DNA of 64,000 nucleotides from Sphingopyxis sp. QXT-31 (GTDB lineage: Bacteria > Pseudomonadota > Alphaproteobacteria > Sphingomonadales > Sphingomonadaceae), in assembly GCF_001984035.1 (NCBI RefSeq), contig NZ_CP019449.1:1240001-1304000 (forward strand), in the 5' to 3' direction. Below are positions 1 to 13,700 of the stretch, in pieces (positions within the stretch are counted from its first letter, which is position 1; every line of letters begins with the position of its first letter). The position numbers and the translations under genes were made by a program. The notes beneath the pieces were generated by a model. It had not been told where the DNA came from. It saw nothing but the letters and a program-made list of their open reading frames with translations, and ran no database searches.

Positions 1-1544
1 GTCACTTGCTCTAGCACGCCGTCGAGCACCGGCGCAGCGGTGGCGACGGTCTGGGCCACAAGAGTCTTCAAGGCCCCGAGATTCAACCCGATTCCCAGCA
101 CCGATCCCGTCAGTTCCATGCGGTCCGACAGCGACTTCGCGGCGCCCGCCACCAACCCCGTGCTCGACACTGTCTTGACCGTGCCGTCGGCAATGTCGTC
201 CCGCGAAAAGGCGACGGGTTTCTCCTCCAGATCGGACAGGAAAAGTTCGGCCTCGGCATCGACGCTGGCGAGCGGCAGCTTCAGCAGTCGCGCCTTCCCG
301 GGATCGAGCGCGCGCCCCATGTCGCGGAAGTCGCTGTCGCTGACGCTGCCGATCGCAAGCATCGCGGGCGAGGTCGTCACCGCAAGCTTCACCGCCTCGT
401 CGCTACCCTTGCTGCAGTCGATGTCCGAAATGCGTGCGGCGGCCGACCCGAGCTCGGCGAGCACCGGAATCTCGACCGTCGCGACCGGGGTCGCCACCTT
501 CGTATCGACGCGCAGCCGCACCTGCGCGGTGCGGACGACGACCTCATTGTCGTCCGTGACTGCGATCAGCGGCGAATTGGCCGGCGGCTCGCCGATGATC
601 AGCCCCACCTTGATATGCGACCCGCCGGGCAGGCCGCTGACCAGGTCGAGGTCGACCTGGCGATCGGCCGAAGCGGTCACCAGCATCGCGCGCATCAGGC
701 TGAGCAGGTTGACGCGCACCGGGTTCGCGGGATCGACGCGTGCGCTCGCGTGGCGCGGGCCGAGGTCGATCACCGAGGCCGGGATCAAGGTCGTCGGGTC
801 CGCGCGTGCCGCCATATGCTCGACCACCGACGCGGCGCTGCCGTCGGAAGCTGCGGCAAGCGCCGAGAGTACCTGCGGCATGGTCACCTCGCTGTTCAGC
901 GTCTGGCCGAAGGTCAGCGCCTCGACCCCGATCTCGGTGCGCAGCGCTTCCGAAAAGGCGAGCAGGTCGACGTCGGCGCTCGCCAGCGCGTTGTAATCCA
1001 TCACCGAAAGGCCCAATTCGCTGCCCGTCAGCGCCGACAGGATCGCGTTGGGGACGCCGCCGTTGACCGCCGCGACACGCGAGCCGAGCGAAAAGGCCGC
1101 ATAGCCGCGCCGCGCACCCGTAGCGCTCGCGCTGATCACATTGCTGTTGCGCCCGGTGATGAGGCGCCCGAAGAACAGGGGATGCGAGCGTGTCAGCACG
1201 ATGCGCACCGCATTTGGCGACGACCCGCCCTCGGTGAAGCGCTGTTCGGCGGCGATGCCGGCGTCGGGGGCGTAGCTGCCGCGGGTGATCGAGGCGATGA
1301 CTATGCCGCAGTCGCAGTTGGCGGCGATGATGCGTTCCGCCGCTGCGCGTTCCTCGCCGGGCTTGGCGGCGGCGGCCATCGCGGCAGCATCGGCGATCCC
1401 CTGCAGCTTGCGACGGTCGAGGTGCAGCGCGCCGATATCGACCGCCAGCGCCGCAGCGCCGATCAGCATCGTCAGCCCGAAGGCGGCGGCGATGCTGATC
1501 GCTCCGCGCGTATCGCGATGCAGCGAAGAGAGCAGCGCGCGCAT
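1..1544 (-). CDS. TadG-like pilus assembly protein, C-terminus cut by window edge
   Basis: An open frame on the minus strand begins at the ATG at 1544 and has no stop before base 1, giving at least 514 residues. The N-terminus has a short basic stretch, a DTRGAISIAAAF segment and one hydrophobic helix (about residues 15-38) ending AVDIGALHLDRRKLQGIADAA. This is the usual start of TadG-like Flp pilus proteins (pseudopilin-like signal, then a helix). The rest is a long extracytoplasmic region without an obvious von Willebrand motif in the visible part. Its start codon overlaps the stop of the TadE-like gene (TGATG), so the two are translationally coupled. Family known to sit with tight-adherence pili; the rest of the tad locus must lie to the left or elsewhere. 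Confidence 0.75.
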   Translation of the reverse strand, partial: MRALLSSLHRDTRGAISIAAAFGLTMLIGAAALAVDIGALHLDRRKLQGIADAAAMAAAAKPGEERAAAERIIAANCDCGIVIASITRGSYAPDAGIAAEQRFTEGGSSPNAVRIVLTRSHPLFFGRLITGRNSNVISASATGARRGYAAFSLGSRVAAVNGGVPNAILSALTGSELGLSVMDYNALASADVDLLAFSEALRTEIGVEALTFGQTLNSEVTMPQVLSALAAASDGSAASVVEHMAARADPTTLIPASVIDLGPRHASARVDPANPVRVNLLSLMRAMLVTASADRQVDLDLVSGLPGGSHIKVGLIIGEPPANSPLIAVTDDNEVVVRTAQVRLRVDTKVATPVATVEIPVLAELGSAAARISDIDCSKGSDEAVKLAVTTSPAMLAIGSVSDSDFRDMGRALDPGKARLLKLPLASVDAEAELFLSDLEEKPVAFSRDDIADGTVKTVSSTGLVAGAAKSLSDRMELTGSVLGIGLNLGALKTLVAQTVATAAPVLDGVLEQV

Positions 1545-1999
1545 CAGTCGGCCGGCAGTTCGAAGGTCGCGCTGGCGCGGATCTCGTCGCCGGGCGAGGG
1601 CACGAGCGAATTGCGCAGCAGGCTGGTTTCCGGAACCCGGTAGGTCAGATCGACCGTGATCGCGTCGCTTGTTTCGGAGACCGCCACGTCGCGGAGTTCG
1701 GTGCGATAGCCCCCGACGCCGTGCATGCTGCGGTCGATCGCGCGCACCGCCACCGCGCGGCGGTCGGCGGCGTCGAGCCCGGTGATCGCGGCGCGCGCGC
1801 CGTCGTTCGCCGCCTGCTGCACGCTGTGCGCGAGCATGAAATATTGGCCGTAGATCAGGATGCCGAGCAGCAGCATCAGGAACAGCGGCAGCAGCAGCGC
1901 GGTCTCGATCATCGCAGTGCCGCGCGCGTTGCGCCGAAAGACGGCAGCAAGGCGGCGGAGGTGGGCCGCACACGGGATATGGCGAACGATCCAGGTCAT
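1544..1999 (-). CDS. TadE-like pilus assembly protein
   Basis: Protein of 151 residues. After a basic leader (about residues 1-28) comes the TadE signature GTAMIETALLLPLFLMLLLG, a single membrane helix preceded by a short positively charged stretch and containing the conserved Glu of type IV pilin-like processing sites. A helical segment FMLAHSVQQAANDGARAA and a soluble tail follow. TadE-type proteins are minor pseudopilins of the Flp/tight-adherence system and act at the cytoplasmic membrane and periplasm. Coupled by a one-base stop/start overlap to the TadG-like gene downstream. The start could lie further in, since the first 28 residues are unusually long for a pseudopilin leader. Confidence 0.8.
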   Translation of the reverse strand: MTWIVRHIPCAAHLRRLAAVFRRNARGTAMIETALLLPLFLMLLLGILIYGQYFMLAHSVQQAANDGARAAITGLDAADRRAVAVRAIDRSMHGVGGYRTELRDVAVSETSDAITVDLTYRVPETSLLRNSLVPSPGDEIRASATFELPAD

Positions 2000-2212: not shown

Positions 2213-2246
2213 CAAAAAGGGCCGCGCTGACGGGCAGTGCGGCCTT
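2213..2246 (-). terminator. Intrinsic terminator after the collar-gene array
   Basis: On the minus strand GGCCGC pairs with GCGGCC around a 13-base loop and is followed by CTTTTTGTT. It lies about 36 bases past the stop of the last collar gene (2282) and is the only classical hairpin-plus-T-run terminator in the collar cluster. The rest of the 2000-2281 gap shows nothing I can name. Confidence 0.75.
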
Positions 2247-2281
2247 CCTTGCGCGGCGAGTCCGCCGCCGCTGGCGAGCGC

Positions 2282-2905
2282 TCAGTTCCGCGACGGGAAA
2301 ATCCCTTCGGTGGCGATGCACCAGTTCACCGTCAGATAGGGCGGCCGGTTCGAGATCGGCTGCGAGCCGCCGGTCGGCGCGATCTGGACCATCGTGCGGT
2401 CCATCAGATTGCCCGCAGGGTCGGGCGGCGGCGCGATGAAGCTGTTGTTCGACGACACGCCGAGCGCATTGCCGTTCGCGGTCGTGCTGTTGGCGTTGGC
2501 ATTGGCGGTCTGGATACCGCCGCGATGGTCGTGCTTGGGCAGGTTGGTAGGAAGCAGCGTCACCGTCTCGCTGCCGCCGACCTGGCCGAGGACATAGGGC
2601 GACAGCCCGGGGCCGCTGCCCTGGTTGATCGCGACGCGTCCGCGCAGGTCGGGCAGCGCGAAGGTCGTCTGGCCATTGCCGCCATAGGTGGTGCCGAGGA
2701 TCGAGAAGAGCGCTGTGTTCTGCGCGATCGCCAGTATCTGGCCGCTCGCGCTCGCCCAGCCGCGCGGGCAAAAGTTGAAACCGGTCTGCATCATCTGCCC
2801 GATATAGGGTTCGATCTGCGCGCTGGCCGGCGTCGCCACGGTCAACGCCGACGTGCCGAGCAGCGCCGCCGCCGAGAATTTCCCCATTGCCCCCATGCGT
2901 GTCAT
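2282..2905 (-). CDS. Secreted tail-collar (MdpB-like) protein, type C, third triplet (C3)
   Basis: 207 residues. A Sec-type signal peptide ends near residue 29 (ATPASA-Q). The mature part starts IEPYIGQMMQ, followed by FCPRGW (Cys46) and the phage tail Collar domain hallmark NTALFSILGTTYGG...TTFALPDLRGR at about 63-90. PKHDH carries the HxH pair (His125, His127), and the C-terminus reads WCIATEGIFPSRN (second Cys near 196). Collar domains are known from phage short tail fibres and from bacterial microcystin-dependent proteins, where the function is poorly defined. Type C marks shared with its two sisters: PYIGQ/E start, HxHR, and PxGNLMD before the end. GGAG lies seven bases before this ATG. 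Last gene of the array, just upstream of a terminator. Confidence 0.85.
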   Translation of the reverse strand: MTRMGAMGKFSAAALLGTSALTVATPASAQIEPYIGQMMQTGFNFCPRGWASASGQILAIAQNTALFSILGTTYGGNGQTTFALPDLRGRVAINQGSGPGLSPYVLGQVGGSETVTLLPTNLPKHDHRGGIQTANANANSTTANGNALGVSSNNSFIAPPPDPAGNLMDRTMVQIAPTGGSQPISNRPPYLTVNWCIATEGIFPSRN

Positions 2906-2952
2906 ATCCCGTCTCCAACTCTATCCTGTTTCGTCCGCGCAGCGCCAAAGGG

Positions 2953-3555
2953 TCAGTTGCGCGACGGGAAAACCCCTTGCAGCGCGATGCAATAGCGATT
3001 GACGAGGAACGGCGACATGTTCGCCACGGGATCGGACCCGCCCGTTTTCTGCACCGCCAGCGTCGCGGCGTTCAGCGCGCCATCGAACTGGATCACGTTC
3101 GAATATTGGAAATCGCTCGTCACTGCGAAGGAGTTCCGGAAAGGTATGGTCGTCGCGGCGTTCGCGTTGACCGTCTGGAACACCGCCTCGTGCGTGTGCG
3201 ACGCCAGTTGATTGATCGTCAGCGTCTGGCTTTCGACGCCTGCCTGCTGACCGATGCTATAGGGTGGAAGCCCGGGCCCCTGACCTTGGTTAAGCACCAT
3301 CCGCCCGCGCAAATCGGGCAGCGCGAAAGTCGTCTGGCCGTTGCCGCCGTAAAAGGTCCCGAGTAGCGAGAAGAGGGCCGTATTCTGAGCGATCGATAAA
3401 AGCTGCCCGTTGGTCTCAATCCAGCCGCGCGGGCAAAAATTATTGCCGACCTCGATCATCTGGCCCAAATAATAATCCTGTGCCGTGGCCGATCCCGCGG
3501 TTGCCAGCGCGCCTAAAGCGATCCCCGCCGTCATCGCTGTTTTCAAATGCCGCAT
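2953..3555 (-). CDS. Secreted tail-collar (MdpB-like) protein, type B, third triplet (B3)
   Basis: 200 residues with a signal peptide (MRHLKTAMTAGIALGALATA..., cleavage near residue 26 before QDYYLGQ). The mature protein has FCPRGW (Cys41), the Collar core NTALFSLLGTFYGGNGQTTF then ALPDLRGR, an SHTH pair and the C-terminal RYCIALQGVFPSRN (Cys189). Type B marks shared with the genes at 5032 and 7075: the MRHLK/MRYK start, YYIGQ/L-IE, FDG-L...LAVQ and NMSPFLV. GGGGAG lies about nine bases before the ATG. Separated by 47 bases from the next gene (C3), so probably one transcript. Likely exported to the periplasm or outside; substrate unknown. Confidence 0.85.
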   Translation of the reverse strand: MRHLKTAMTAGIALGALATAGSATAQDYYLGQMIEVGNNFCPRGWIETNGQLLSIAQNTALFSLLGTFYGGNGQTTFALPDLRGRMVLNQGQGPGLPPYSIGQQAGVESQTLTINQLASHTHEAVFQTVNANAATTIPFRNSFAVTSDFQYSNVIQFDGALNAATLAVQKTGGSDPVANMSPFLVNRYCIALQGVFPSRN

Positions 3556-3603
3556 CGTAAAACTCCCCTCAAAGCCCCATTGGCCGCCCCAGCGGCGACG
3601 CCG

Positions 3604-4221
3604 TCAGTTGCGCGACGGGAAAATCCCTTCGGTCAGGACACAGAAACGAATGGCCAGATAGGGCGGCAGATGGTTGTAGGGCGTGTTGTTGCCGGTGTTG
3701 CGGATGATCACCGTTTCACGGTTCATCAGCTGCGCATTGGGCGCGGTGCCGTTCACATATTTGTTCGCGGGCGTGGTCGGAAAGATGTTGCGGAAGGCAC
3801 CGCCGTTGTTCCCCGCAGCGCTGGTCGTGCGGACCAGCCCCGTATGCTCGTGCCGCGGCATCTGGTTTTCGGTCAACGTCGTCGTCTCGGTGCCGCCCGC
3901 CTCGCCTTGGGTGCGATTGGTCAGCCCCGGTCCTTGACCCAGATGCATCGAATAACGCCCAGCCATGTTGGGCAATGCAAAGGTCGTCTGGCCGTCACCG
4001 CCGTACGTCGTCCCATAGAGCGAGAAGAGTGCGGTGTTCTGCGCGATCGACAAGAGCTGGCCATTGGCTTCCGCCGATCCGCGCGGGCAGAAATTGCCGC
4101 CGAACTTCATGACCTCGCCAAGGTAGGTGAACTGCGCTTGCGCGGTACCCGGCAGCGCGAGCACGCCTACGAGAACCGCCGCCGCGGACATATAGAAATG
4201 CGATTTACGCGCGATAGCCAT
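3604..4221 (-). CDS. Secreted tail-collar (MdpB-like) protein, type A, third triplet (A3)
   Basis: 205 residues. The signal peptide runs to about residue 29 (LPGTAQA-Q). Mature start FTYLGEVMKFGGNFCPRGS, Collar core NTALFSLYGTTYGGDGQTTF and ALPNMAGR, then PRHEHTGLVRTTSA with the HxH pair, then NAQLMNRETVIIRNTG and the end RFCVLTEGIFPSRN. The long conserved PRHEH-x-LVRTTSA and AQLxNRE blocks define type A and recur in the genes at 5690 and 7749. It is the first gene of the third triplet. A promoter-like element and a 13-bp hairpin lie in the 139-base gap upstream, a gap two to three times longer than those inside a triplet. Confidence 0.85.
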   Translation of the reverse strand: MAIARKSHFYMSAAAVLVGVLALPGTAQAQFTYLGEVMKFGGNFCPRGSAEANGQLLSIAQNTALFSLYGTTYGGDGQTTFALPNMAGRYSMHLGQGPGLTNRTQGEAGGTETTTLTENQMPRHEHTGLVRTTSAAGNNGGAFRNIFPTTPANKYVNGTAPNAQLMNRETVIIRNTGNNTPYNHLPPYLAIRFCVLTEGIFPSRN

Positions 4222-4256
4222 CGCTCAGCCCCCCACCTCGATAACCCGGGCAAAAG

Positions 4257-4282
4257 GCTAACCGAAATTTAACCAGAGTCAA
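4257..4282 (-). promoter_or_regulatory. Putative promoter ahead of collar triplet 3
   Basis: On the minus strand TTGACT (4282-4277) is followed after 14 bases by GTTAGC (4262-4257); TAGCCT read as a -10 gives a 16-base spacer. The same 26-base layout, with 20 of 26 identical bases by eye, lies ahead of the first collar gene at 8396-8421. It ends 35 bases before the A3 start codon. Confidence 0.45.
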
Positions 4283-4286
4283 TGGC

Positions 4287-4325
4287 GGGACGCCAGCGGA
4301 GCGGGATGCACCCCGCTGGCGTCCC
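4287..4325 (-). other. 13-bp inverted repeat between collar triplets 2 and 3
   Basis: GGGACGCCAGCGG (4287-4299) pairs perfectly with 4313-4325 around a 13-base loop. There is no T-run on the minus strand, so this is not a standard intrinsic terminator. It sits 35 bases after the C2 stop and just before the promoter-like element of triplet 3, so it may mark an mRNA 3' end or processing site. Confidence 0.55.
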
Positions 4326-4360
4326 TTTCCTTGGCGCGGCCAGCGAACCGGCCGCGACGA

Positions 4361-4987
4361 TCAGTTGCGTGGCGGGAAGATTCCCTGCGTGGCGATGCAC
4401 CATTTCATCACCAGATAGGGCGGCTGGTTCGGCACCGGGATCGAATTGCCGGTCGTCTGAACCAGGATGCTGCCCGGGTCCATCAGGTTCCCTGCGGGAT
4501 CGGGCGGCGGCGCCGCATAGCCGGGGTTCACCGGCACCGCGAGCGAATTGCCGTTCGCCGCCGTCTGATTGGCATCGACATTGGCAGTCTGTGCGCCGAC
4601 GCGATGATTGTGCGGCGCCATATTCAGGATGGTCAGCGTCGTCGTCTCGGTGCCGGTGACCTCACCGAGGACATAAGGCGACAGCCCCGGGCCCTGCCCG
4701 GTATGCACCGCCGCACGGCCACGCAGATCGGGCAATTGGAATGTCGTTGTGCCGTTGCCGCCATAGGTCGTGCCGAGCAGCGAGAAAAGTGCCGTATTCG
4801 ACTGGATCGCCAAGATCTGCCCCGCCGCCTGGGTGTAGCCGCGCGGGCAGAAGGTGAAGCCGACCTGCATGAACTGCCCAATATAGGGCTGGAGCCCGTC
4901 CGCCGATGCCGGTGCCGCATAGCCCAATGTGCTGCCCCCGAGCGCCAACGCCAGGGTAAATTTCCGAAGATTGCCAGTGCGTTTCAT
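4361..4987 (-). CDS. Secreted tail-collar (MdpB-like) protein, type C, second triplet (C2)
   Basis: 208 residues from the ATG at 4987, chosen over an upstream in-frame ATG because GGAGG lies seven bases before it and a signal peptide (MKRTGNLRKFTLALALGGS..., cleavage near PASA-D) follows at once. Mature part: PYIGQFMQVGFTFCPRGYTQA, Collar core NTALFSLLGTTYGGNGTTTF and QLPDLRGR, APHNHR with the HxH pair, PDPAGNLMD and KWCIATQGIFPPRN. It belongs with 2282 and 6404 (type C). Exactly two cysteines in the mature protein, one near each end, as in all nine paralogues. Confidence 0.85.
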   Translation of the reverse strand: MKRTGNLRKFTLALALGGSTLGYAAPASADGLQPYIGQFMQVGFTFCPRGYTQAAGQILAIQSNTALFSLLGTTYGGNGTTTFQLPDLRGRAAVHTGQGPGLSPYVLGEVTGTETTTLTILNMAPHNHRVGAQTANVDANQTAANGNSLAVPVNPGYAAPPPDPAGNLMDPGSILVQTTGNSIPVPNQPPYLVMKWCIATQGIFPPRN

Positions 4988-5031
4988 ATCCGCCTCCGAT
5001 GTCTGAATGTGGTGATGTCGCTGCGCGCGCA

Positions 5032-5637
5032 TCAATTGCGAGACGGGAAGACCCCGAACTGCGCGATGCAATAGCGAGTGACCAGGAACGGCGACATATT
5101 GGGCACGACCACCCCGTCGGTTCCGCTCTTCTGCACAGCGAGCGTCGTGGCTTCGAGGTTGCCGTCGAAAGCCTGCGTGCCGCTGACATATTGATTGTCG
5201 GTGGTCACGCCGAAGCTGTTACGGAACACGATGCGCTGGTTGCCCGCGCCGGTCACCGTCTGGATCACGCCCGGATGGCTGTGGGCCGGCAGGTTGGCGA
5301 TCGTATGCGACACATTTTCCTGCCCGCCGACCTGGCCCTGCGTATAGTTTTGCAGGCCCGGTCCCTGCCCGTCGCCGATCAGCATGCGCCCGCGCAGATC
5401 GGGCACCTGGAAGGTCGTCACGCCATTGCCGCCATAGGTGGTGCCGACCAGCGAGAAAAACGCCTGGTTCTGGGCGATCGGCAGCACCTGCCCGTTCGCC
5501 TCGAGGAAGTTCCGCGGGCAATAGGTAGCGCCGGTTTCGATCACCTGGCCGATATAATAATCCTGAGCCGTCGCGGGCACGGTGCCCACGAAAGCCAATG
5601 TGCTGGCCGCTGCCAACATCGAAGTCTTGTACCGCAT
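5032..5637 (-). CDS. Secreted tail-collar (MdpB-like) protein, type B, second triplet (B2)
   Basis: 201 residues from the ATG at 5637. An ATG two codons earlier (5643) is possible, but AAGGGG lies only two bases from it and about eight bases from 5637. Signal peptide MRYKTSMLAAASTLAFVGTV... with cleavage near PATA-QD, mature start YYIGQVIETGATYCPRNF, Collar core LVGTTYGGNGVTTF then QVPDLRGR, PAHSHPG, FDGNLEATTLAVQKSG and RYCIAQFGVFPSRN. Type B, like 2953 and 7075. 44 bases separate it from C2 downstream. Confidence 0.85.
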   Translation of the reverse strand: MRYKTSMLAAASTLAFVGTVPATAQDYYIGQVIETGATYCPRNFLEANGQVLPIAQNQAFFSLVGTTYGGNGVTTFQVPDLRGRMLIGDGQGPGLQNYTQGQVGGQENVSHTIANLPAHSHPGVIQTVTGAGNQRIVFRNSFGVTTDNQYVSGTQAFDGNLEATTLAVQKSGTDGVVVPNMSPFLVTRYCIAQFGVFPSRN

Positions 5638-5689
5638 TGTCATAACCCCTTGAAATGTGAGCGCGCCTTCAAAAGCGGCGCGGCGAGCC

Positions 5690-6301
5690 TCAATTCTGTG
5701 GCGGGAAAATGCCCTCGAGCGCGACGCAATAACGAATGGTCAGCGTCGGCGGCAGATGGCTATAGGGCTCTCCGTTACCGGCGCTGTTGATCAGGATGCT
5801 CTCGCGGTTCATCAGCTGGGCGTTCGGCGCGCTGTTAGCATATTTGGCCGCGGGCGTCGTGCCGAGCTTGTTGCCGACGGGGGTGGTGGCATTCGCGGCC
5901 GCGCTGGTCGTGCGCACCAGCGCGACATGCTCGTGACGCGGCATGGTCGCGATCGTCTGGGTATTGCTCTCGGTGCCGCCGATTTGGCCCAGCGGGCGTG
6001 CGCTCAGACCGTTGCCGGTGCCGGTGTGGATCGACATGCGGCTCTGCAGGTTCGGCAGGCCAAAGGTGGTGACCCCGTCGCCGCCGAAGGTCGTACCATA
6101 CAGCGTGTAGAGCGGAGTATATTGCGCGATCGACAGCAACTGACCGTCGGCCTCGTCGGTGCCGGCAGGACAGAAATTATAGGGAACCTTCAGGATTTCT
6201 CCGATATAATTGTCCTGGGCGTTCGCCACCGAGGCGCCCCCCAGCGTTCCAGCGATGGCTGCCGCCGTCGCCAAGAGATATGATTTGCGCAACATCGTCA
6301 T
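5690..6301 (-). CDS. Secreted tail-collar (MdpB-like) protein, type A, second triplet (A2)
   Basis: 203 residues from the ATG at 6301, which has GGAGG six bases upstream; a longer in-frame extension to 6355 has no ribosome binding site and would bury the signal peptide. The signal peptide ends near VANA-QD. Mature DNYIGEILKVPYNFCPAGTD, Collar core YTLYGTTFGGDGVTTF and GLPNLQSRM, PRHEHVALVRTTSA, APNAQLMNRESILI and RYCVALEGIFPPQN. Type A, like 3604 and 7749. The Collar core here has LQSR in place of the usual LRGR, the most diverged of the nine at that motif. Confidence 0.85.
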   Translation of the reverse strand: MTMLRKSYLLATAAAIAGTLGGASVANAQDNYIGEILKVPYNFCPAGTDEADGQLLSIAQYTPLYTLYGTTFGGDGVTTFGLPNLQSRMSIHTGTGNGLSARPLGQIGGTESNTQTIATMPRHEHVALVRTTSAAANATTPVGNKLGTTPAAKYANSAPNAQLMNRESILINSAGNGEPYSHLPPTLTIRYCVALEGIFPPQN

Positions 6302-6333
6302 TCCGCCTCCTCCTAGAAAATCACATATGCCAA

Positions 6334-6397
6334 GTGCCGCCGGAAATGGCGGCACCGATCGACCCGTTCATTCTTTTTGGGCCCCGTACAGCGGGCC
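6334..6397 (-). other. Two short hairpins between collar triplets 1 and 2
   Basis: The 102-base gap between C1 and A2 holds an 8-bp stem (6334-6341 with 6348-6355, GTGCCGCC/GGCGGCAC, 6-base loop) and a 5-bp stem (6380-6384 with 6393-6397). Neither has a T-run on the minus strand. They recall the hairpin after C2 and may be processing or stability sites. I do not find the TTGACT promoter-like element of the other two triplets here. Confidence 0.45.
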
Positions 6398-6403
6398 GGT
6401 AAG

Positions 6404-7027
6404 TCAGTTGCGCGCCGGGAAGACCCCCTGCAGCGCGATACAATGCAACATCGTCAGATAGGGCGGCCGGTTGGTAACCGGCAACGAGCTGCCGGTAACG
6501 CCGACCTGCACCATGGTGCGGTCCATCAGATTGCCCGACGGGTCGGTGCCCGACAGGAAGCTGTTGTTCGACGACACCCCCAGCGCGTTGCCGTTCGCAG
6601 TGGCCGAATTCGCCGACGCGTTCGCGGTCTGGACCCCGCCGCGGTGGTCATGCTTCGCCAGGTTGGCGACGGTCAGCGTCGTCGTGGATGCTCCCGCCTC
6701 CTCGCCGATCACATAGGGGCTCAGCCCCGGTCCCGACCCATAATAGTTCATCGCGCGGCCCGACAGGTTCGGAAGCGCAAAGGTCGTCTGACCGTTGCCG
6801 CCATAATTGGTGCCGAGCAACGAAAAAAGCGCCGTATTCTGTGAGATCGGCAGCAATTGGCCCTGTGCCGACGCCCAGCCGCGCGGGCAGAAATTGCCGG
6901 GTAACAGGATGATCTCGCCGATATAGGGGTCCGCCGCATCCGCGTGCGCCGGCGCGCTGTACGCCAGCGCGCTCCCGCTCGCGATTAACCCCATGGTGAA
7001 GGTCCTGATTGCCGCCCTGCCCGTCAT
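6404..7027 (-). CDS. Secreted tail-collar (MdpB-like) protein, type C, first triplet (C1)
   Basis: 207 residues from the ATG at 7027, preferred because GGAGG lies seven bases before it. The N-terminus MTGRAAIRTFTMGLIASGSALAYSAPAHA is a signal peptide. Mature DAADPYIGEIILLPGNFCPRGWASAQ, Collar core LLGTNYGGNGQTTF and ALPNLSGR, AKHDHRGG, SGNLMDRTMVQ and LHCIALQGVFPARN. It is closest to the type C gene at 2282: both carry HDHRGG, NGNALGVSSNNSF and NLMDRTMVQ. This suggests that triplets 1 and 3 share a recent history, or gene conversion between them. Confidence 0.85.
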   Translation of the reverse strand: MTGRAAIRTFTMGLIASGSALAYSAPAHADAADPYIGEIILLPGNFCPRGWASAQGQLLPISQNTALFSLLGTNYGGNGQTTFALPNLSGRAMNYYGSGPGLSPYVIGEEAGASTTTLTVANLAKHDHRGGVQTANASANSATANGNALGVSSNNSFLSGTDPSGNLMDRTMVQVGVTGSSLPVTNRPPYLTMLHCIALQGVFPARN

Positions 7028-7074
7028 GCCCGCCTCCGATTTCCATATGTCGTTCGATATCCCGTCGGTCCGCG

Positions 7075-7695
7075 TCAATTGCGCGACGGATAGATGCCCT
7101 GAAGCGCGATGCAGTAGTTCGTCACGAGAAAGGGCGCCATGTTCGGGAACGGCACCCCGCTGGTGCCCGTCTGCTGCACCGCCATCGTGTCGGGGTGCAG
7201 ATTGCCGTCGAAGGTCGCTGGCCCGCTCGGCGGCGGCGTCTTATATTGATTGTCCGGCGTCACCGCGAAAGCGTTGCGAAACGGCTTGTTGTCGTTCGTA
7301 TTGGCATTGGCCGTCTGGAACACGGCCTCGTGCGAGTGCGCCGGAAGATTCGCATTGGTCAGCGTCACCGTCTGCTGACCGCCGACCTGCCCGACGTTGA
7401 AAAACTCGCCGCCGGTCAACTGACCATAGCCGACGACCATGCGGCCGCGAATATCGGGCAATTGGAAGGTCGTCACGCCATTGCCGCCGTAGGTGGTACC
7501 GATCAGCGAGAAGAGCGCCGTATTCTGCTGGATCGACAGGATTTGCCCGGCCGCCAAAGCGAAGCCGCGCGGGCAGAACGGCACTCCGGTCTCGATTATC
7601 TGGCTGATGAAGAACTGCTGCGCCATCGCCGGCGACGCGGCGGCGATTGCCATCCCCGATGCGGCGGCAAGCGCCAGAGGTTTCAGATGCCGCAT
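7075..7695 (-). CDS. Secreted tail-collar (MdpB-like) protein, type B, first triplet (B1)
   Basis: 206 residues from the ATG at 7695, which has GGGAG about nine bases upstream; a TTG two codons earlier is less likely. Signal peptide MRHLKPLALAAASGMAIAAA... with cleavage near PAMA-Q. Mature QFFISQIIETGVPFCPRGF, Collar core LIGTTYGGNGVTTF and QLPDIRGR, PAHSHEAVFQTANA, FDGNLHPDTMAVQQTG and NYCIALQGIYPSRN. Type B, like 5032 and 2953; its loop before FDG carries a short PPPSGP insert. The last five residues YPSRN vary the otherwise common FPSRN. Confidence 0.85.
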   Translation of the reverse strand: MRHLKPLALAAASGMAIAAASPAMAQQFFISQIIETGVPFCPRGFALAAGQILSIQQNTALFSLIGTTYGGNGVTTFQLPDIRGRMVVGYGQLTGGEFFNVGQVGGQQTVTLTNANLPAHSHEAVFQTANANTNDNKPFRNAFAVTPDNQYKTPPPSGPATFDGNLHPDTMAVQQTGTSGVPFPNMAPFLVTNYCIALQGIYPSRN

Positions 7696-7748
7696 TGTCA
7701 AACTCCCCTATCTGCCCCTGGTCCCGCCCCGCGGTGCCGCGTCGCCGC

Positions 7749-8363
7749 CTAGTTCTGCGACGGGAAAATCCCTGCATTCACGACGCAAAAGGTTACCGCC
7801 AGCGTCGGCGGCCGGTGATCCCACGGCTGGTCGCCGCCGGTGTTGCGGATGATCAGCGTCTCGCGGTTGATCAATTGCGCATAGGGCGCGGTGCCGCTGA
7901 CATATTTGTTCGCGGGCGTGGTGCCAAACAGATTGCGGAAGGCCGCTTTCGAATCGCCGACGGCAGAGGTCGTGCGCACCAGCGCCGTATGTTCGTGCCG
8001 CGGCATGTTCGCGATCGTCATCAGATTGGTTTCGGTGCCGGCCCTTTCGCCGATGACGCGGCTTGTCAGCCCCGGGCCCTGTCCTTGGCCCATCGAGGTG
8101 CGTCCGCGCAGGTCTGGAAGAGCGAAGGTAGTTACACCATCACCGCCGTAAGTGGTGCCATAGAGCGTGTAGAGCGTGCTTTCCTGTGCGATGCTGAGCA
8201 GGCTGCCGTCGGCGCGGAGCGTCCCGATCGGACAGAAATTGCCGCCGAGCTTCAATATCTGGCCGAGATAATTATCCTGCGCTGCTGCGGGGGAAGTCAG
8301 GCTCGCGCAGCTGATAGCTACCGCCGACGCCGATATGAATATTGAACTGCGCAACACAGTCAT
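7749..8363 (-). CDS. Secreted tail-collar (MdpB-like) protein, type A, first triplet (A1)
   Basis: 204 residues from the ATG at 8363. An ATG three codons earlier (8372) cannot be excluded; I prefer 8363 because MTVLRSS matches the MTMLRKS start of A2 and leaves a G-rich ribosome site upstream. Signal peptide to about residue 31 (SPAAA-QD). Mature DNYLGQILKLGGNFCPIGT, Collar core YTLYGTTYGGDGVTTF and ALPDLRGR, PRHEHTALVRTTSA, PYAQLINRETLIIRNTG and TFCVVNAGIFPSQN. First gene of the nine-gene array, preceded by a promoter-like element and 98 bases past the stop of the yghU-like gene. Confidence 0.85.
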   Translation of the reverse strand: MTVLRSSIFISASAVAISCASLTSPAAAQDNYLGQILKLGGNFCPIGTLRADGSLLSIAQESTLYTLYGTTYGGDGVTTFALPDLRGRTSMGQGQGPGLTSRVIGERAGTETNLMTIANMPRHEHTALVRTTSAVGDSKAAFRNLFGTTPANKYVSGTAPYAQLINRETLIIRNTGGDQPWDHRPPTLAVTFCVVNAGIFPSQN

Positions 8364-8395
8364 GCCCCCCATCCCGCTGCCCCAAGACGCGCGAC

Positions 8396-8461: not shown

Positions 8462-9343
8462 TCAGCGTTCGTCGGCAGGCGCGAGCTTGTCTTGCGTGCG
8501 CAGGTCGAAGTCGCTCGCGTCGTGGCGTTCGTGAAGCTGGCTCGCGGGATCGCCCATCACGCGGTTGACCATGCGCCCGCGCTTGACTGCAGGGCGCGCC
8601 GCGATCTGATCGGTCCAACGCTGGACATTCTTGTAATCCTGCACCTGCAGGAATTCGCCCGCGTCATAGACCAGCCCCTTGGCGAGCGCGCCGTACCAGG
8701 GCCAGATCGCCATGTCGGCGATTGTATAATCGGTGCCCGCGATATATTCGCTCTCCGCGAGCCGCCGGTCGAGCACATCGAGTTGGCGCTTCACCTCCAT
8801 GGCATAGCGATTGATCGGATACTCCATCTTATAGGGCGCATAGGCGTAAAAATGCCCGAAGCCGCCGCCGAGGAAGGGCGCGCTGCCCATTTGCCACATC
8901 AGCCACGACAGGGTTTCAGCGCGCGCGGCGGTTTCGGTCGGCAGGAAGGCGCCGAATTTCTCGGCGAGATGGATCAGGATCGCCCCCGATTCAAAGATGC
9001 GGATCGGCTCGGCGCCGCTGCGGTCGACCATCACCGGGATCTTGCTGTTCGGATTGATCGCGACATAGCCGCTCGAGAATTGGTCGCCCTCGCCGATGTT
9101 GATCAGCCAGGCGTCATATTCGGCGCCGCCGTGCCCCGCGGCGAGCAGTTCCTCGAGCATCACGGTGACCTTCACGCCATTGGGCGTGCCGAGCGAATAA
9201 AGCTGGAGCGGATGCTTGCCGACCGGCAGCTCCTTGTCGTGCGTCGGCCCCGCGATCGGCCGGTTGATGTTCGCGAAACGCCCGCCGCTTTCCTTGTCCC
9301 AGGTCCAGACCTTCGGCGGAACATAGTCGGTGGCGTCGCTCAT
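8462..9343 (-). CDS. yghU: YghU-family glutathione-dependent disulfide oxidoreductase
   Basis: 293 residues from the ATG at 9343, which has AGGAG seven bases upstream; the frame extends 26 codons further without a ribosome site. YghU/YfcG proteins are cytosolic GST-fold enzymes with glutathione-dependent disulfide reductase activity. Visible: an N-terminal extension with WTWDKESGGRFANINRPIAGPTH (the YghU signature), a thioredoxin-fold part with LYSLGTPNGVKVTVMLEE and NSKIPVMVD then IFESGAILIHLAEKFG (glutathione gamma-Glu site, E-S), then a helical C-terminal domain with YTIADMAIWPWY. Length matches the family (about 290). Same strand as the CoA-transferase upstream and the collar array downstream, but probably a separate unit. 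Confidence 0.85.
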   Translation of the reverse strand: MSDATDYVPPKVWTWDKESGGRFANINRPIAGPTHDKELPVGKHPLQLYSLGTPNGVKVTVMLEELLAAGHGGAEYDAWLINIGEGDQFSSGYVAINPNSKIPVMVDRSGAEPIRIFESGAILIHLAEKFGAFLPTETAARAETLSWLMWQMGSAPFLGGGFGHFYAYAPYKMEYPINRYAMEVKRQLDVLDRRLAESEYIAGTDYTIADMAIWPWYGALAKGLVYDAGEFLQVQDYKNVQRWTDQIAARPAVKRGRMVNRVMGDPASQLHERHDASDFDLRTQDKLAPADER

Positions 9344-9417
9344 CGGGAACTCCTGCGTCAGATTGTGTACTGGCCGGTATTTAATCGCGCGAGGCGGCGG
9401 CGTCCAGTCGAGCAGCG

Positions 9418-10596
9418 TCAAATAATGTTTTGCGCGCGCAAAGCCCCAATGGCTTCGGCGTCGTAACCGAGCTCCGCGAGAATCGCGTCGCTATGCTCGC
9501 CGACATAGGGCGCGCGCAGCGGTGCAGCCTTGCCGCTCGCCGAAAGGGTGATCGGCGTGCGCACCACGGGCGCCGGACCGAAGCCGCCCGGATACTCCAT
9601 CGGATCGACCAGCCCAGTCGCGGCGACCTGTGGATGCGCGAGTGCCTCCGCTGGCTTCAGCACCGGCCCCGCTGGAACCTTGGCTGCACCGAGTTCGTCG
9701 AGCGCCTGATGATTCGTCCGCGCCGCGCACCATTCGGCCATCACGGCGCTGAGTTCCGCGCCATGCCCGCCCCGCGAAGTATCATTGGCGAAACGCGGAT
9801 CGTCGGCGAGGTCGGGCCGCCCGACCAGCCGCGCCCAGCGCGCGAAGATCGGATTGCCGACGACCTGCGTCATGATCCAGCCGTCCTGTGTCGCGAAGAT
9901 GTCGGTCGGCGCCGAGCTGAAGGCGCGGTTGCCCATCATGCCGCGGTCGATGCCGTTCAGCGCATGGTCGATCGTCAGTCCGTTGGTGATCGCGAGCGCG
10001 GTGCCGAGCAGCGAGCCCGACACGCGCTGGCCGACGCCGGTCACCTCGCGCTCGCGCAGCGCCAGCATCACTCCGAAGGCGCAGTGCAACGCGGTGGTGA
10101 AATCGACATAATTGACCTGCGCGCGCGCCGGTTCGCCGTCCTTGCCGCCGATATAGACCGCGCCGGACATCGCCTGCCCGACCGCGTCGAAACCGACATG
10201 CTGCGCGAGCGGTCCTTCGATCCCGAATGCAGATGCGGTCACGAGAATGACGCGCGGGTTGAGTTCCGACAGCGTCGGGTAATCTAGGCCGAGCTTCACC
10301 AGCGCGCCGTCGGGCATATTGGCGATCACCACGTCGGCGCTCGCGATCAGCTTGCGCACGATCGCGCGGCCCTCGTCGCTCCCAGGCTTCAGCGTCAGGC
10401 AACGCTTGTTCCGATTCATCTGCAGGAACATCGCACCCGAGCCGTCCTCGGCGACGGGCACCGAAAAGCGGTCCTCGTTTCCGCCAGGCGCCTCGATGCG
10501 GATCACGTCAGCGCCATAATCGGCGAGCAGCGCGCCCACATAGGGCCCGGCGATATAGCGCCCGAAATCGAGTACACGGATGCCCTTCAGCGGCAT
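9418..10596 (-). CDS. Family III CoA-transferase (CaiB/BaiF type)
   Basis: 392 residues from the ATG at 10596, with GGGGGAGG upstream; an upstream in-frame ATG at 10638 adds a 14-residue tail of no family character. Begins MPLKGIRVLDFGRYIAGPYVGALLADYGADVIRIEAPGG, the classic CaiB/BaiF opening, with FLQMNRNKRCLTLKP and ASAFGIEGPLAQHVGFDAVGQAMSG following. These dimeric cytosolic enzymes move CoA between carboxylic acids through an Asp-linked anhydride. In this protein the segment that normally carries the catalytic Asp reads GQRVSGSLLG (about residues 189-198), with Ser193 where CaiB-like enzymes have Asp. Substrate unknown. It is divergent from the amidohydrolase gene. Confidence 0.85.
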   Translation of the reverse strand: MPLKGIRVLDFGRYIAGPYVGALLADYGADVIRIEAPGGNEDRFSVPVAEDGSGAMFLQMNRNKRCLTLKPGSDEGRAIVRKLIASADVVIANMPDGALVKLGLDYPTLSELNPRVILVTASAFGIEGPLAQHVGFDAVGQAMSGAVYIGGKDGEPARAQVNYVDFTTALHCAFGVMLALREREVTGVGQRVSGSLLGTALAITNGLTIDHALNGIDRGMMGNRAFSSAPTDIFATQDGWIMTQVVGNPIFARWARLVGRPDLADDPRFANDTSRGGHGAELSAVMAEWCAARTNHQALDELGAAKVPAGPVLKPAEALAHPQVAATGLVDPMEYPGGFGPAPVVRTPITLSASGKAAPLRAPYVGEHSDAILAELGYDAEAIGALRAQNII

Positions 10597-10734: not shown

Positions 10735-13700
10735 ATGGCGCGCTTCGCTCTCGCCCTGGCCATGTCGCTGGCCTGCTCGACTTCGGTCTTCGCTCAAACC
10801 GCTCCGGCGCCCGCTGCATCCGGCGCTGAGGAGAAGAAAGCAGAGAAGTGGGACGTCAACGCGCCGCCCGGCATGACGACGCGCAAGGTCAACATCGCGG
10901 TCGACGAGGGCAGCTGGATGAACGTCGACGTCGCGCCCGACGGGCGGACGATCGCTTTCGACCTGCTCGGCGACATCTATACGATGCCGATCGAGGGCGG
11001 CACGCCGACGCGCATCGCCGAGGGGCTCGCCTATGAGCATCAGCCGCGCTTCTCGCCCGACGGCAGCCGCATCGCCTTTGTCTCCGACCGCGGCGGCGGC
11101 GACAATATTTGGCTGATGAACCGCGACGGCAGCAACAAGGTCCAGCTGTCGAAGGAGGATTTCCGCCTGCTCAACCAGCCGAGCTGGTCGCCCGACGGCC
11201 AATTCATCGTCGCCAAGAAGCATTTCACTACGGGCCGCTCGCTCGGCACCGGCGAGGTGTGGATGTACCATGTCTCGGGCGGCGCGGGAGTGCCTTTGGT
11301 CAAGAAACCCAACGAACGCCACCAGAAGGAGCTCGGCGAGCCGATCTTCGCCCCCGACGGCAAGAGCGTCTATTTCACGCGCAACGTCACCCCCGGCCCG
11401 ATCTTCGAATATGCGCAGGACAGCAACAGCGACCTGTTCCACATCGAGCGCTACGACCTCGATGACGGCGAGACGAGCACGGCGGCCTCGGGCGCGGGCG
11501 GCGCGGTACGCCCGACCCCTTCGCCCGACGGCAAGAAGCTCGCCTATGTCCGCCGCGAGGGCACGCAGTCAAAGCTCTATGTGAAGGACCTCGCCTCGGG
11601 GCAGGAGCGCAAAGTCTATGATGCGCTCGACCAGGATGTGCAGGAAACCTGGGCGGTGACCGGCGTCTATCCGAACATGGCGTGGACGCCCGACGGCAAG
11701 GGTCTGGTCTTCTGGGCGGGCGGCAAGCTACGCCGCGTCGGCGCCGCCGGCGGCGAAGCGCGGGTGATCCCGTTCAGCATCGCCGACGACCGCGTGATCG
11801 TCGATGCGGCACATCCGACGGTCGAGGTCGCCCCCGACAGCTTCACGACCAAGATGCCGCGCTGGTCCGAAGTCTCGCCCGACGGCCGCACCGTGGTGTT
11901 CGAAACGCTCGGCAAGCTCTGGACTAAGCCCGCGAGGGGCGGCACCGCGCGGCGGCTGACCGCGGCGAAGGACGATGCGATGGAGGCCTGGCCGAGCTGG
12001 TCGCGCGACGGCAGGTCGATCGTCTTCGTGCGCTGGACCGACAGCGGCCTTGGCGAAATCCATGTCAGCCCCGCCGCGGGCGGCGCGTCGCGCAAGGTGA
12101 CGAGCGTTCCGGGCCATTATGCCGAACCGCGCTTCTCGCCCGATGGTAAGACGATCGCCTTCGAGCGCCGCGGCAGCGGCGGGCTGACGTCGGCCAAATG
12201 GAGCGAGGATCCGGGCGTCTATCGCGTTGCTGCCGCAGGCGGCGCGCCCGAGCGCGTCAGCTCCGATGGCGCCAAGCCGCAGTTCGGTGCCGACAATGAC
12301 CGCCTGTTCATGGTCGCCGCCGCCGATGGCAAGAGCCAGCTGGTCAGCACCGGACTCCACGGTCAGGACAAGCGCGTCCACGCCAGCGGCGAACTGGTCA
12401 GCGATTACGAGATTTCGCCCGACGGCCGCACGCTGGCCTTCCGCCAGAATTACGACGCCTATGTCACTCCGCTGATGCCCGGTGGGCAGGACGTCTCGCT
12501 CGGCACCAAGAGCGCCGCGCTGCCCGTCACGCGCGTCAGCGGCAGCGGTGCCGATTATATGCACTGGTCGAACGGCGGATCGAAACTCCACTGGAGCCGC
12601 GGTGCGACCTTGTTCAGCGCCGACCTCGCGAGCCTGTTCTTCAACGCCCCGGCGGACGAAAAGGCGCCGAAATTCGCGCCGCCGACCGACGGCGTCTCGC
12701 TCGCGATGACGCAGGCCGTGGCGAAGCCCAAGGGCACCGTGGTGATCACCGGCGCGCGCATCGTCACCATGGCCGACAAGGCCGGCGGCATCATCGACAA
12801 TGGCGCGATCGTGATCGAGGGCGACCGCATCACCGCCGTCGGTCCGCTCGCCGCGATCAGCGTGCCCGCGGGCGCGATCACCGTCGACGCGGCGGGCAAG
12901 ACGATCGTCCCGGGCTTCGTCGATGCGCATGCGCATGGCGCGCACGGCGACGACGAACTGGTGCCGCAGCAGAACTGGTCGGAGATCGTCAATCTCGCGA
13001 TGGGCACGACTACGAGCCACAACCCCTCGTCGCGCGCGTCGGAGATTTTCCCTTCGTCCGAGATGCAGCGCGCCGGGCTGATCCTCGCGCCGCGCATCTT
13101 CTCGACCGGCGAGATCATCTACGGCGCAAAGGCGGCGGGGGTCTATGCCGAGATCAACAGCTATGAAGACGCGCTCGCGCACGTCCGTCGGCTGAAGGCG
13201 CAGGGCGCGCACAGCGTCAAGAACTACAACCAGCCGCGCCGTGAACAGCGCCAGATGGTGGTCAAGGCGGCTCAGGCCGAGGGGATGGAGGTCGTGCCCG
13301 AGGGTGGCTCGCTCTACACGATGGACCTGACGCTGATCCAGGACGGCAATTCGACCGTCGAACACAATATCCCGCTCCATACCTTCTACAAGGATCTGGT
13401 GCAGCTGTGGGGGCAGACGACGGTCGATTATACGCCGACGCTGGTCGTCACCTATGGCGGCCCGGCGGGCGATCCCTATTGGCGCGCGCACACCAATGTG
13501 TGGGAGCATCCGATCCTGACCAAACATATCCCGCCGACCGATCTCGCCGCGCAGAACAAGCGCCGCGTCATCGCGCCCGAGGGCGATTATGTCGACGACG
13601 ATTCGGCACGCGAGGCGTTGAAGATCGCCGAGGCGGGCCGCAACGTCTCGATCGGCGCGCACGGCCAGCAATCGGGGCTCGGCGCGCATTGGGAGATTTG

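Follow-up and report, generated by a model that had tools for sequence, protein, structure and literature searches.

What a bacterial chromosome does with nine similar, apparently exported proteins encoded side by side is the question raised by one locus of Sphingopyxis sp. QXT-31. The locus lies in the 64,000-nucleotide stretch analysed here (the window; positions 1,240,001 to 1,304,000 of NZ_CP019449.1), which belongs to a genome of 4.285 Mb in one contig (G000). On the minus strand at 2282..8363, nine consecutive genes for proteins with the phage tail collar domain (PF07484) were found; the proteins have 200–208 residues from ATG, and the genes follow each other in the order ABC-ABC-ABC. 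Each A-B-C cassette probably gives one secreted 1:1:1 A:B:C heterotrimer, a host-encoded tail-fibre tip. The 1:1:1 assembly per cassette is likely, and the binding of a glycan or polymer by the head of this tip is an evenly balanced proposal.

Cassette 1 consists of A1 (7749..8363, ATG at 8363 and a further in-frame ATG at 8372), B1 (7075..7695, ATG 7695) and C1 (6404..7027, ATG 7027). Cassette 2 comprises A2 (5690..6301, ATG 6301), B2 (5032..5643) and C2 (4361..4987, ATG 4987), and cassette 3 comprises A3 (3604..4221), B3 (2953..3555) and C3 (2282..2905). All nine proteins exceeded the Pfam gathering cut-off of the Collar family (24 bits), with scores of 68.6–88.1 bits. In addition, all nine begin with a charged and hydrophobic segment followed by an AxA cleavage motif and are predicted to carry signal peptides, which were called for these nine by this simple rule and not by SignalP. 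The C-terminal signatures of each type were present in every protein of that type: PRHEHxxLVRTTSA and AQLxNRE in A, FDGxL and NMxPFLV in B, and HxHR and GNLMD in C. Measured with ATG starts, the spacers were 44–53 bases within triplets, 102 bases between cassettes 1 and 2, and 139 bases between cassettes 2 and 3. These features, described in the initial annotation of the DNA, were all confirmed. The identity of the proteins, taken with slightly longer starts for some genes, was 56–63% within a type and 36–49% across types. When three genes of each type are shuffled, a strict repeat of one triplet order arises arithmetically in 6 of 1680 orders; the ABC-ABC-ABC order is not a matter of chance. 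The nearest named relatives were from Sphingopyxis, and NCBIfam gave no meaningful match, only one sub-threshold permease match.

The inheritance of the cassette was studied with a tree of 60 proteins from 20 intact Sphingopyxis triplets. Types A, B and C were each split off by one branch (support 100/99, 100/98 and 100/98, respectively), and the same clade stood at each triplet position in 20 of 20 triplets. A tree constrained to hold A1, B1 and C1 together cost 443 log-likelihood units and was rejected by the approximately unbiased test (p-AU 4.8e-46). The expected monophyly of the types and their strict order held in the triplets examined. Moreover, the subclades within A, B and C mostly contained the same triplets, with two exceptions. 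B2 of G000 and G032 joined the T1-type B genes, a possible trace of past exchange, and the fourth, diverged triplet D described below joined T3-type genes in A and B and stood apart in C. The pairwise distances of A, B and C were correlated, with r of 0.87–0.90 for all 20 triplets, 0.71–0.76 without D, and 0.61–0.65 without D and the near copy in G032; none of 5000 label permutations gave a value as high. Since joint duplication alone yields such a correlation, the result speaks for the cassette as the inherited unit and does not by itself indicate contact between the proteins. The ratio of nonsynonymous to synonymous substitution rates (dN/dS) between G000 and G032 was 0.065–0.25 for all 12 genes, and the cassette genes are under purifying selection. 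The collar, an HxH motif and the C-terminal core were conserved across cassettes (invariant columns in 51 proteins without D).

Copy number at the locus changed by whole triplets, from 0 to 4 among the genus genomes. The profile of the nine genes matched 13 of 80 genus genomes, and window-type genes were located at the same locus in eight of them, numbering 12, 12, 12, 6, 6, 6, 6 and 3; a seventh match in G079 came from one broken gene in two pieces. The loci L020 and L021 were taken as those of G102 and G079 and counted once. The five other genomes (G013, G028, G080, G090 and G103) had one or two diverged collar genes at other loci. Triplet D lies about 1.1 kb past the left edge of the window, at C1:1236974-1238834 of G000 (matched parts; 8953-10870 in L011); its A and C proteins lack the usual GIFPSRN-like C-terminus. 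At the main array, one A-B-C cassette was found in G102, two in G001, G027, G079 and G083, and three, together with D, in G000, G026 and G032. The close relative G012 has none: there the TadE gene adjoins the glutathione S-transferase-like (GST) gene (L114, G012 C66, about 12900-13200), and a 17-base match to the hairpin behind C3 is kept between them (E 0.002). Triplet D and the collar-free locus of G012 lay beyond the view of the initial annotation. Its proposal that the cassette was amplified and diversified as a unit is well supported by the monophyletic types, the whole-triplet copy changes (always 3, 6 or 12 genes where the array occurs) and the correlated distances (r 0.61–0.90).

The strongest new evidence for a heterotrimer was a rule of three, seen both in runs of separate genes and in relatives in which several collar units are joined in one chain. 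With a three-unit probe made of the joined L060 proteins, 118 new proteins were counted among the matches listed, 93 with three units, 24 with two and 1 with one; among the listed matches longer than 440 residues, 93 of 96 had three. No listed protein was counted with four or more, and nine units were assigned to P0185 by a later count. A five-unit probe (candidate lengths of about 462–1470 residues) was used to lessen the bias of the three-unit probe, and of its best 120 of 1608 matches, 118 had exactly three units, one had nine (P0185) and one had two. P0185 is a protein of 795 residues with nine short collar units, a multiple of three, and a precomputed PF00706 match. Furthermore, among 150 proteins of at least 260 residues, 45 had the architecture NCNCNC and 46 had CNCNCN, in which the C-terminal piece of the unit is moved to the N-terminus; such circular permutants make up about half of the three-unit chains seen. 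The permutation would be natural if unit 3 adjoined unit 1 in a closed ring. N-terminal signal-like segments were noted in CNCNCN proteins (P0139, P0149, P0151 and others), some with a precomputed PEP-CTERM match (PF07589), and a crude C-terminal pattern fitted 42 of 120 proteins of both architectures. A secreted single-chain form with three collars seems to exist elsewhere.

The units in these chains were assigned by profile score to the cross-phylum types 1, 2 and 3, with a 10-bit margin that was chosen by us and on which the counts depend. Of 42 true two-unit proteins, 32 were fully typed, 31 as heterotypic and 1 as homotypic, and 10 were ambiguous. Among 45 three-unit chains, 22 were fully typed, 21 with one unit of each type and 1 without, and 23 were not fully typed. 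The types themselves are seen in a tree of 187 domains, for which the support is that of the Shimodaira–Hasegawa-like approximate likelihood ratio test (SH-aLRT) only. Triplets of proteins of about 170 residues grouped by type across Verrucomicrobiota, Actinomycetota, Chloroflexota, Acidobacteriota, Vulcanimicrobiota and Pseudomonadota, with support of 98 for type 1, 87–95 for type 2 and 91 for type 3. The gene order was rotated in the triplets L089, L092 and L097, with all three types kept. The two-unit probe P0160 matched 14 of 398 genomes of the phylum at 15 loci, and the collar units totalled three at all 15: three genes at 14 loci, and a two-unit open reading frame (ORF) plus a single one at L132. 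The probe needs two units, so single-gene loci were unsampled there. By best score, 11 of the 15 loci hold types 1, 2 and 3.

Runs of separate collar genes were also counted. The sample, which is biased, consisted of the best 80 loci of a contig scan and a few from relatives, with 12 truncated runs left out. Of the 79 untruncated runs, 34 were single ORFs, 13 were pairs and 28 were triplets; 2 runs had four ORFs, 1 had six, and 1 had seven that represent six genes, one of them broken. A census of the class covered 387 genomes with up to 8 candidates scored in each, which makes its counts lower bounds, and took places at E of about 1e-20 or better with the own genome excluded. Apart from the four genomes in which 8 of 8 candidates matched, it gave at least 27 single runs, at least 4 pairs and at least 13 threes, and no run of four or more. 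The four saturated genomes had 10 runs, namely seven triplets and three pairs, and the pairs are possibly incomplete. One census pair (G379, C1:670714-671667) lies in a single frame of 743 residues with a third, weaker collar match, the three matches being of another kind. One census three (G219, C29:38887-40511) has a frame of 421 residues with two collar matches beside a single-collar frame, a possible two-plus-one arrangement. The family is large: in one search, all 7996 candidates scored passed E 1e-3 as COG4675/MdpB-type, and the named hits among the matches listed were mostly microcystin-dependent, phage tail or tail fiber proteins.

The closest solved structures by sequence were the phage fibre tips 8kec, 1ocy, 1pdi and 5iv5. 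Both the family profile, by sequence against the PDB, and the lone unit, by Foldseek, matched the cyanophage A-1(L) tail fibre (8kec) best; this fibre differs in being a phage fibre protein of 379 residues, for which we know of no separate A, B and C types. No bacterial PDB chain named MdpB was matched at E<=1 with the profiles of A1 and A2 or at E<=0.1 with those of P0148 and P0151, and two histone chains among the PDB matches look like chance. Phage T4 gp12 (1OCY) shares the Collar fold, and the fold match to the gp12-type tip covers its receptor-binding domain. In the HMMER alignment, the family HxH fell on residues 116 and 118 of 1OCY, which are His445 and His447 of gp12 by the chain numbering. 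The motif was present in 9 of 9 window proteins, 90 of 90 alignment rows and 185 of 187 domains, both exceptions being in L069. A review describes gp12 as a trimer of one gene product whose zinc lies on the threefold axis, where each chain binds it through His445 and His447 (PMC3004832). A second paper describes HxH sites of six histidines in further trimeric fibres and points out that it is uncertain which metal gp12 naturally binds (PMC6116203). The Sphingopyxis proteins differ from gp12 in the lack of a shaft, the use of three genes, the predicted Sec export and an invariant cysteine pair. T4 gp12 sits on the phage tail as a homotrimer with a shaft.

The cysteine pair was invariant in the nine window proteins. 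Among the 187 domains, a C-terminal cysteine was found in 36 of 37 with a cysteine at NFCPRG, compared with 52 of 144 with the usual GWAFC cysteine, and six had neither N-terminal cysteine. The N-terminal cysteine was thus shifted by seven residues in 37 domains, those of the window and similar, mostly alphaproteobacterial proteins, nearly always with a C-terminal cysteine partner. A disulfide bond within exported members would agree with this pattern. AlphaFold2 modelled the lone subunit, the mature part of C3, with a predicted local distance difference test score (pLDDT) of 75 and of about 50 in the middle, and the natural single-chain three-collar protein P0148 with a pLDDT of 95.9 and a predicted template modelling score (pTM) of 0.90. 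The contrast between the models suggests that three units are needed to fold.

Three consecutive genes are already known to yield a collar heterotrimer. In the virophage DSLV2, the products of three adjacent PF07484 genes, which have 196, 205 and 247 residues, co-purify as a 1:1:1 heterotrimer of about 55 kDa in native polyacrylamide gel electrophoresis (58.3 expected), form fibres of about 16 nm, are modelled better as heterotrimers than as homotrimers, and bind Synechococcus (PMC12724248). The terms histidine, zinc, HxH, metal, MdpB and fused do not occur in the main text of that paper (PMC12724248). The Sphingopyxis cassettes resemble the DSLV2 set in having three consecutive same-strand PF07484 genes, of about 200–250 residues, with position-specific types. 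The DSLV2 set is a virion component encoded next to a minor capsid gene, while the Sphingopyxis set is bacterial, carries predicted signal peptides, is flanked by TadE and GST genes, and has three to four cassettes. With TadE and GST as neighbours and no minor capsid gene, the array would work like the DSLV2 system and is not a member of the virophage module. The microcystin-dependent MdpB proteins (COG4675) share the domain and the C-terminal motif and have three-gene runs in several phyla; their triplets of about 170 residues (L060, L085 and L093) differ in starting at the collar, with no obvious signal peptide and with other types. Sphingopyxis A, B and C seem to have an origin separate from that of the MdpB triplet types. 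An MdpB-type protein has been recorded in soil metaproteomes (PMC5579227). Among the best matches in the open-licence PMC literature, a scope that leaves subscription papers and bioRxiv outside, bacterial collar triplets were not found, and only PMC12724248 joined tail collar and heterotrimer; neither the exported multi-cassette form of bacteria nor the single-chain rule of three was found there.

Taken as a mechanism, each A-B-C cassette would be a three-gene operon whose products are exported by Sec. A single chain each of A, B and C would intertwine in the fold of a gp12-type tail-fibre tip, with the collar at the base and the middle segments jointly forming a head. Every chain would contribute one HxH pair, and the resulting six histidines would hold one metal ion on the pseudo-threefold axis. 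The subunits would evolve as a matched set, so that the whole triplet would be the unit of duplication and loss, and four cassettes would give four diverged heads with several head specificities. The head would most likely bind a surface glycan, lipopolysaccharide or another polymer, as tail-fibre tips do; a site of action outside the cytoplasm, as well as adhesion or glycan binding, is what we infer from these features. Support for the hetero-oligomer put forward in the initial annotation is indirect but strong: fusions and gene runs both follow the rule of three, the metal motif belongs to a threefold axis, the models of one and of three units contrast, and a virophage heterotrimer has been demonstrated. 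In short, the observation made there was real, and its interpretation was largely right in kind and is partly supported.

The neighbourhood of the array was compared within the genus. The order is an AutoT-sigma-FecR-TonB receptor group, two acyl-CoA dehydrogenases, triplet D where present, the PAS/Phd gene, TadG, TadE, the A-B-C cassettes, GST and a CoA transferase; the PAS/Phd gene, TadG and TadE thus sit between D and the window array. The GST gene (8462..9421, minus strand) forms the boundary of the array and the TadE-like gene (1544..1999, minus strand) lies downstream of it. The product of the PAS/Phd gene (10950-11849 in L011) combines an N-terminal Phd/YefM-like domain with a PAS domain, and the gene occurs in most genomes of the genus, whether or not they carry collar arrays. 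It was rejected as a partner, having matches in 47 of 60 genus genomes (2 in the C-terminal part only, 2 at E of about 1e-4), most of them without collars. The acyl-CoA dehydrogenase was likewise rejected, with matches in 58 of 60, most without collars. TadE is not a specific partner, since it is present in G012 without collars; TadE and TadG were both dismissed, and these two and the PAS/Phd gene were not found at the locus of the collar-bearing G001 and G102. A gene for GspD of type II secretion occurs elsewhere in the genome, with no link to the cassettes.

The spacers were searched for signs of transcription units. A hairpin behind C1 (6334..6355, minus strand) is an 8-bp perfect inverted repeat in a spacer with an RNA fold z of -1.6 (12 of 200 shuffles as stable). 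Behind C2, a strong hairpin (4287..4325, minus strand) has perfect arms of 13 bp and a spacer fold z of -5.2 (0 of 200 shuffles), and behind C3 a terminator-like hairpin with a U run (2213..2251, minus strand) has a fold z of -0.8; only that behind C2 stands out against the shuffles. The six spacers within triplets had RNA fold z values of -0.04 to 1.4. This suggests that the cassettes may be expressed separately. A terminator scan found 4 candidates against a shuffle mean of 5.7, the spacer hairpins not among them. A sigma-70 promoter scan gave 2 against a shuffle mean of 1.7, which is no better than shuffles, and no promoter is claimed.

Several results weigh against a heterotrimer or weaken the case for it. 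In the 79 runs, collar genes stand alone 34 times and in pairs 13 times; the family therefore probably includes homotrimers, and any one type could in principle assemble with itself. The grouping of genes by neighbour, absent from Sphingopyxis, was found in six other three-gene loci (L017, L018, L049, L063, L065 and L078), which may be read as independent triplication, or alternatively as gene conversion. All nine window proteins scored best against type 3, with margins from 2.8 bits (A1) to 41 bits, and they stand in clades of their own in the domain tree; Sphingopyxis A, B and C are hence not types 1, 2 and 3, and the evidence from those types applies by analogy. Four P0160 loci (L125, L126, L130 and L132) had no clean set of types 1, 2 and 3 by best score, and type 3 apparently occurs twice in 7 of the 45 three-unit chains, the third unit being without a type in six of these. 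The model support comes from the scores of the single chains C3 and P0148, and besides the signal peptide no anchor or export partner was found. A competing view is that each protein forms its own homotrimer and that the three act together, as a stacked fibre or as separate binders, being co-inherited for dosage or shared function. The single-gene product of T4 gp12 noted above, the 34 single-gene runs and the phage relatives of C3 agree with it, the last with 291 places in 257 records and so mostly one place in each. However, chains of exactly three, usually different units, together with their circularly permuted forms, are better explained by one closed trimer than by a stack of three, and the DSLV2 triplet was co-purified as a heterotrimer and modelled better so (PMC12724248). 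We consider separate homotrimers unlikely, though deserving of attention.

An extension compatible with the heterotrimer is that subunits mix between cassettes, four each of A, B and C giving many heads and a combinatorial receptor set. The conserved collar, HxH and C-terminal core would permit this, and the deviating position of B2 would be tolerable if B chains were interchangeable. On the other hand, the three members of a cassette diverge together, as dedicated partners would, although joint duplication alone also gives that, and the hairpins suggest separate expression; mixing is therefore regarded as rather doubtful. That the proteins are secreted for an unrelated role, for example in the envelope or in stress, with the triplet merely a stable unit of duplication, would suit the patchy distribution (8 of 80 genomes) and the fact that no functional data were found for the genes. 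It leaves unexplained why three units recur in separate loci, fusions and permuted chains across phyla, and appears improbable. The matches to PF07484 and to tail PHROGs could also point to a phage remnant or the module of a tail-like particle in place of a host system. As the initial annotation had stated, no other phage structural gene was found nearby, that is, among six neighbours scanned with Pfam (GST, CoA transferase, acyl-CoA dehydrogenase, TonB receptor, TadE and PAS/Phd) or at the syntenic locus, the remaining window not having been scanned with phage models. No plasmid matched the array at megablast sensitivity, and the 257 phage records with relatives all showed less than 60% identity. 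Signal peptides predicted in 9 of 9 proteins, the same chromosomal locus across species and the low dN/dS also speak against a phage origin, which is very improbable.

Returning to the heterotrimer, we lean towards a general picture in which three different collar units, as three genes, as two plus one, or as one chain that may be permuted, build a cell-owned, pseudo-threefold, metal-centred tip in many phyla, Sphingopyxis having four exported cassettes that possibly mix subunits. Should one trimer consist of three different units, many annotations that now stand apart would merge into one subunit set, and the gene numbers would be explained. The arrays would then be cell-owned, diversified receptor tips and a model for the passage from homotrimer to heterotrimer to single chain. 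The finding suggests a mode of assembly for a large, poorly understood family of bacterial proteins, the COG4675/MdpB type.

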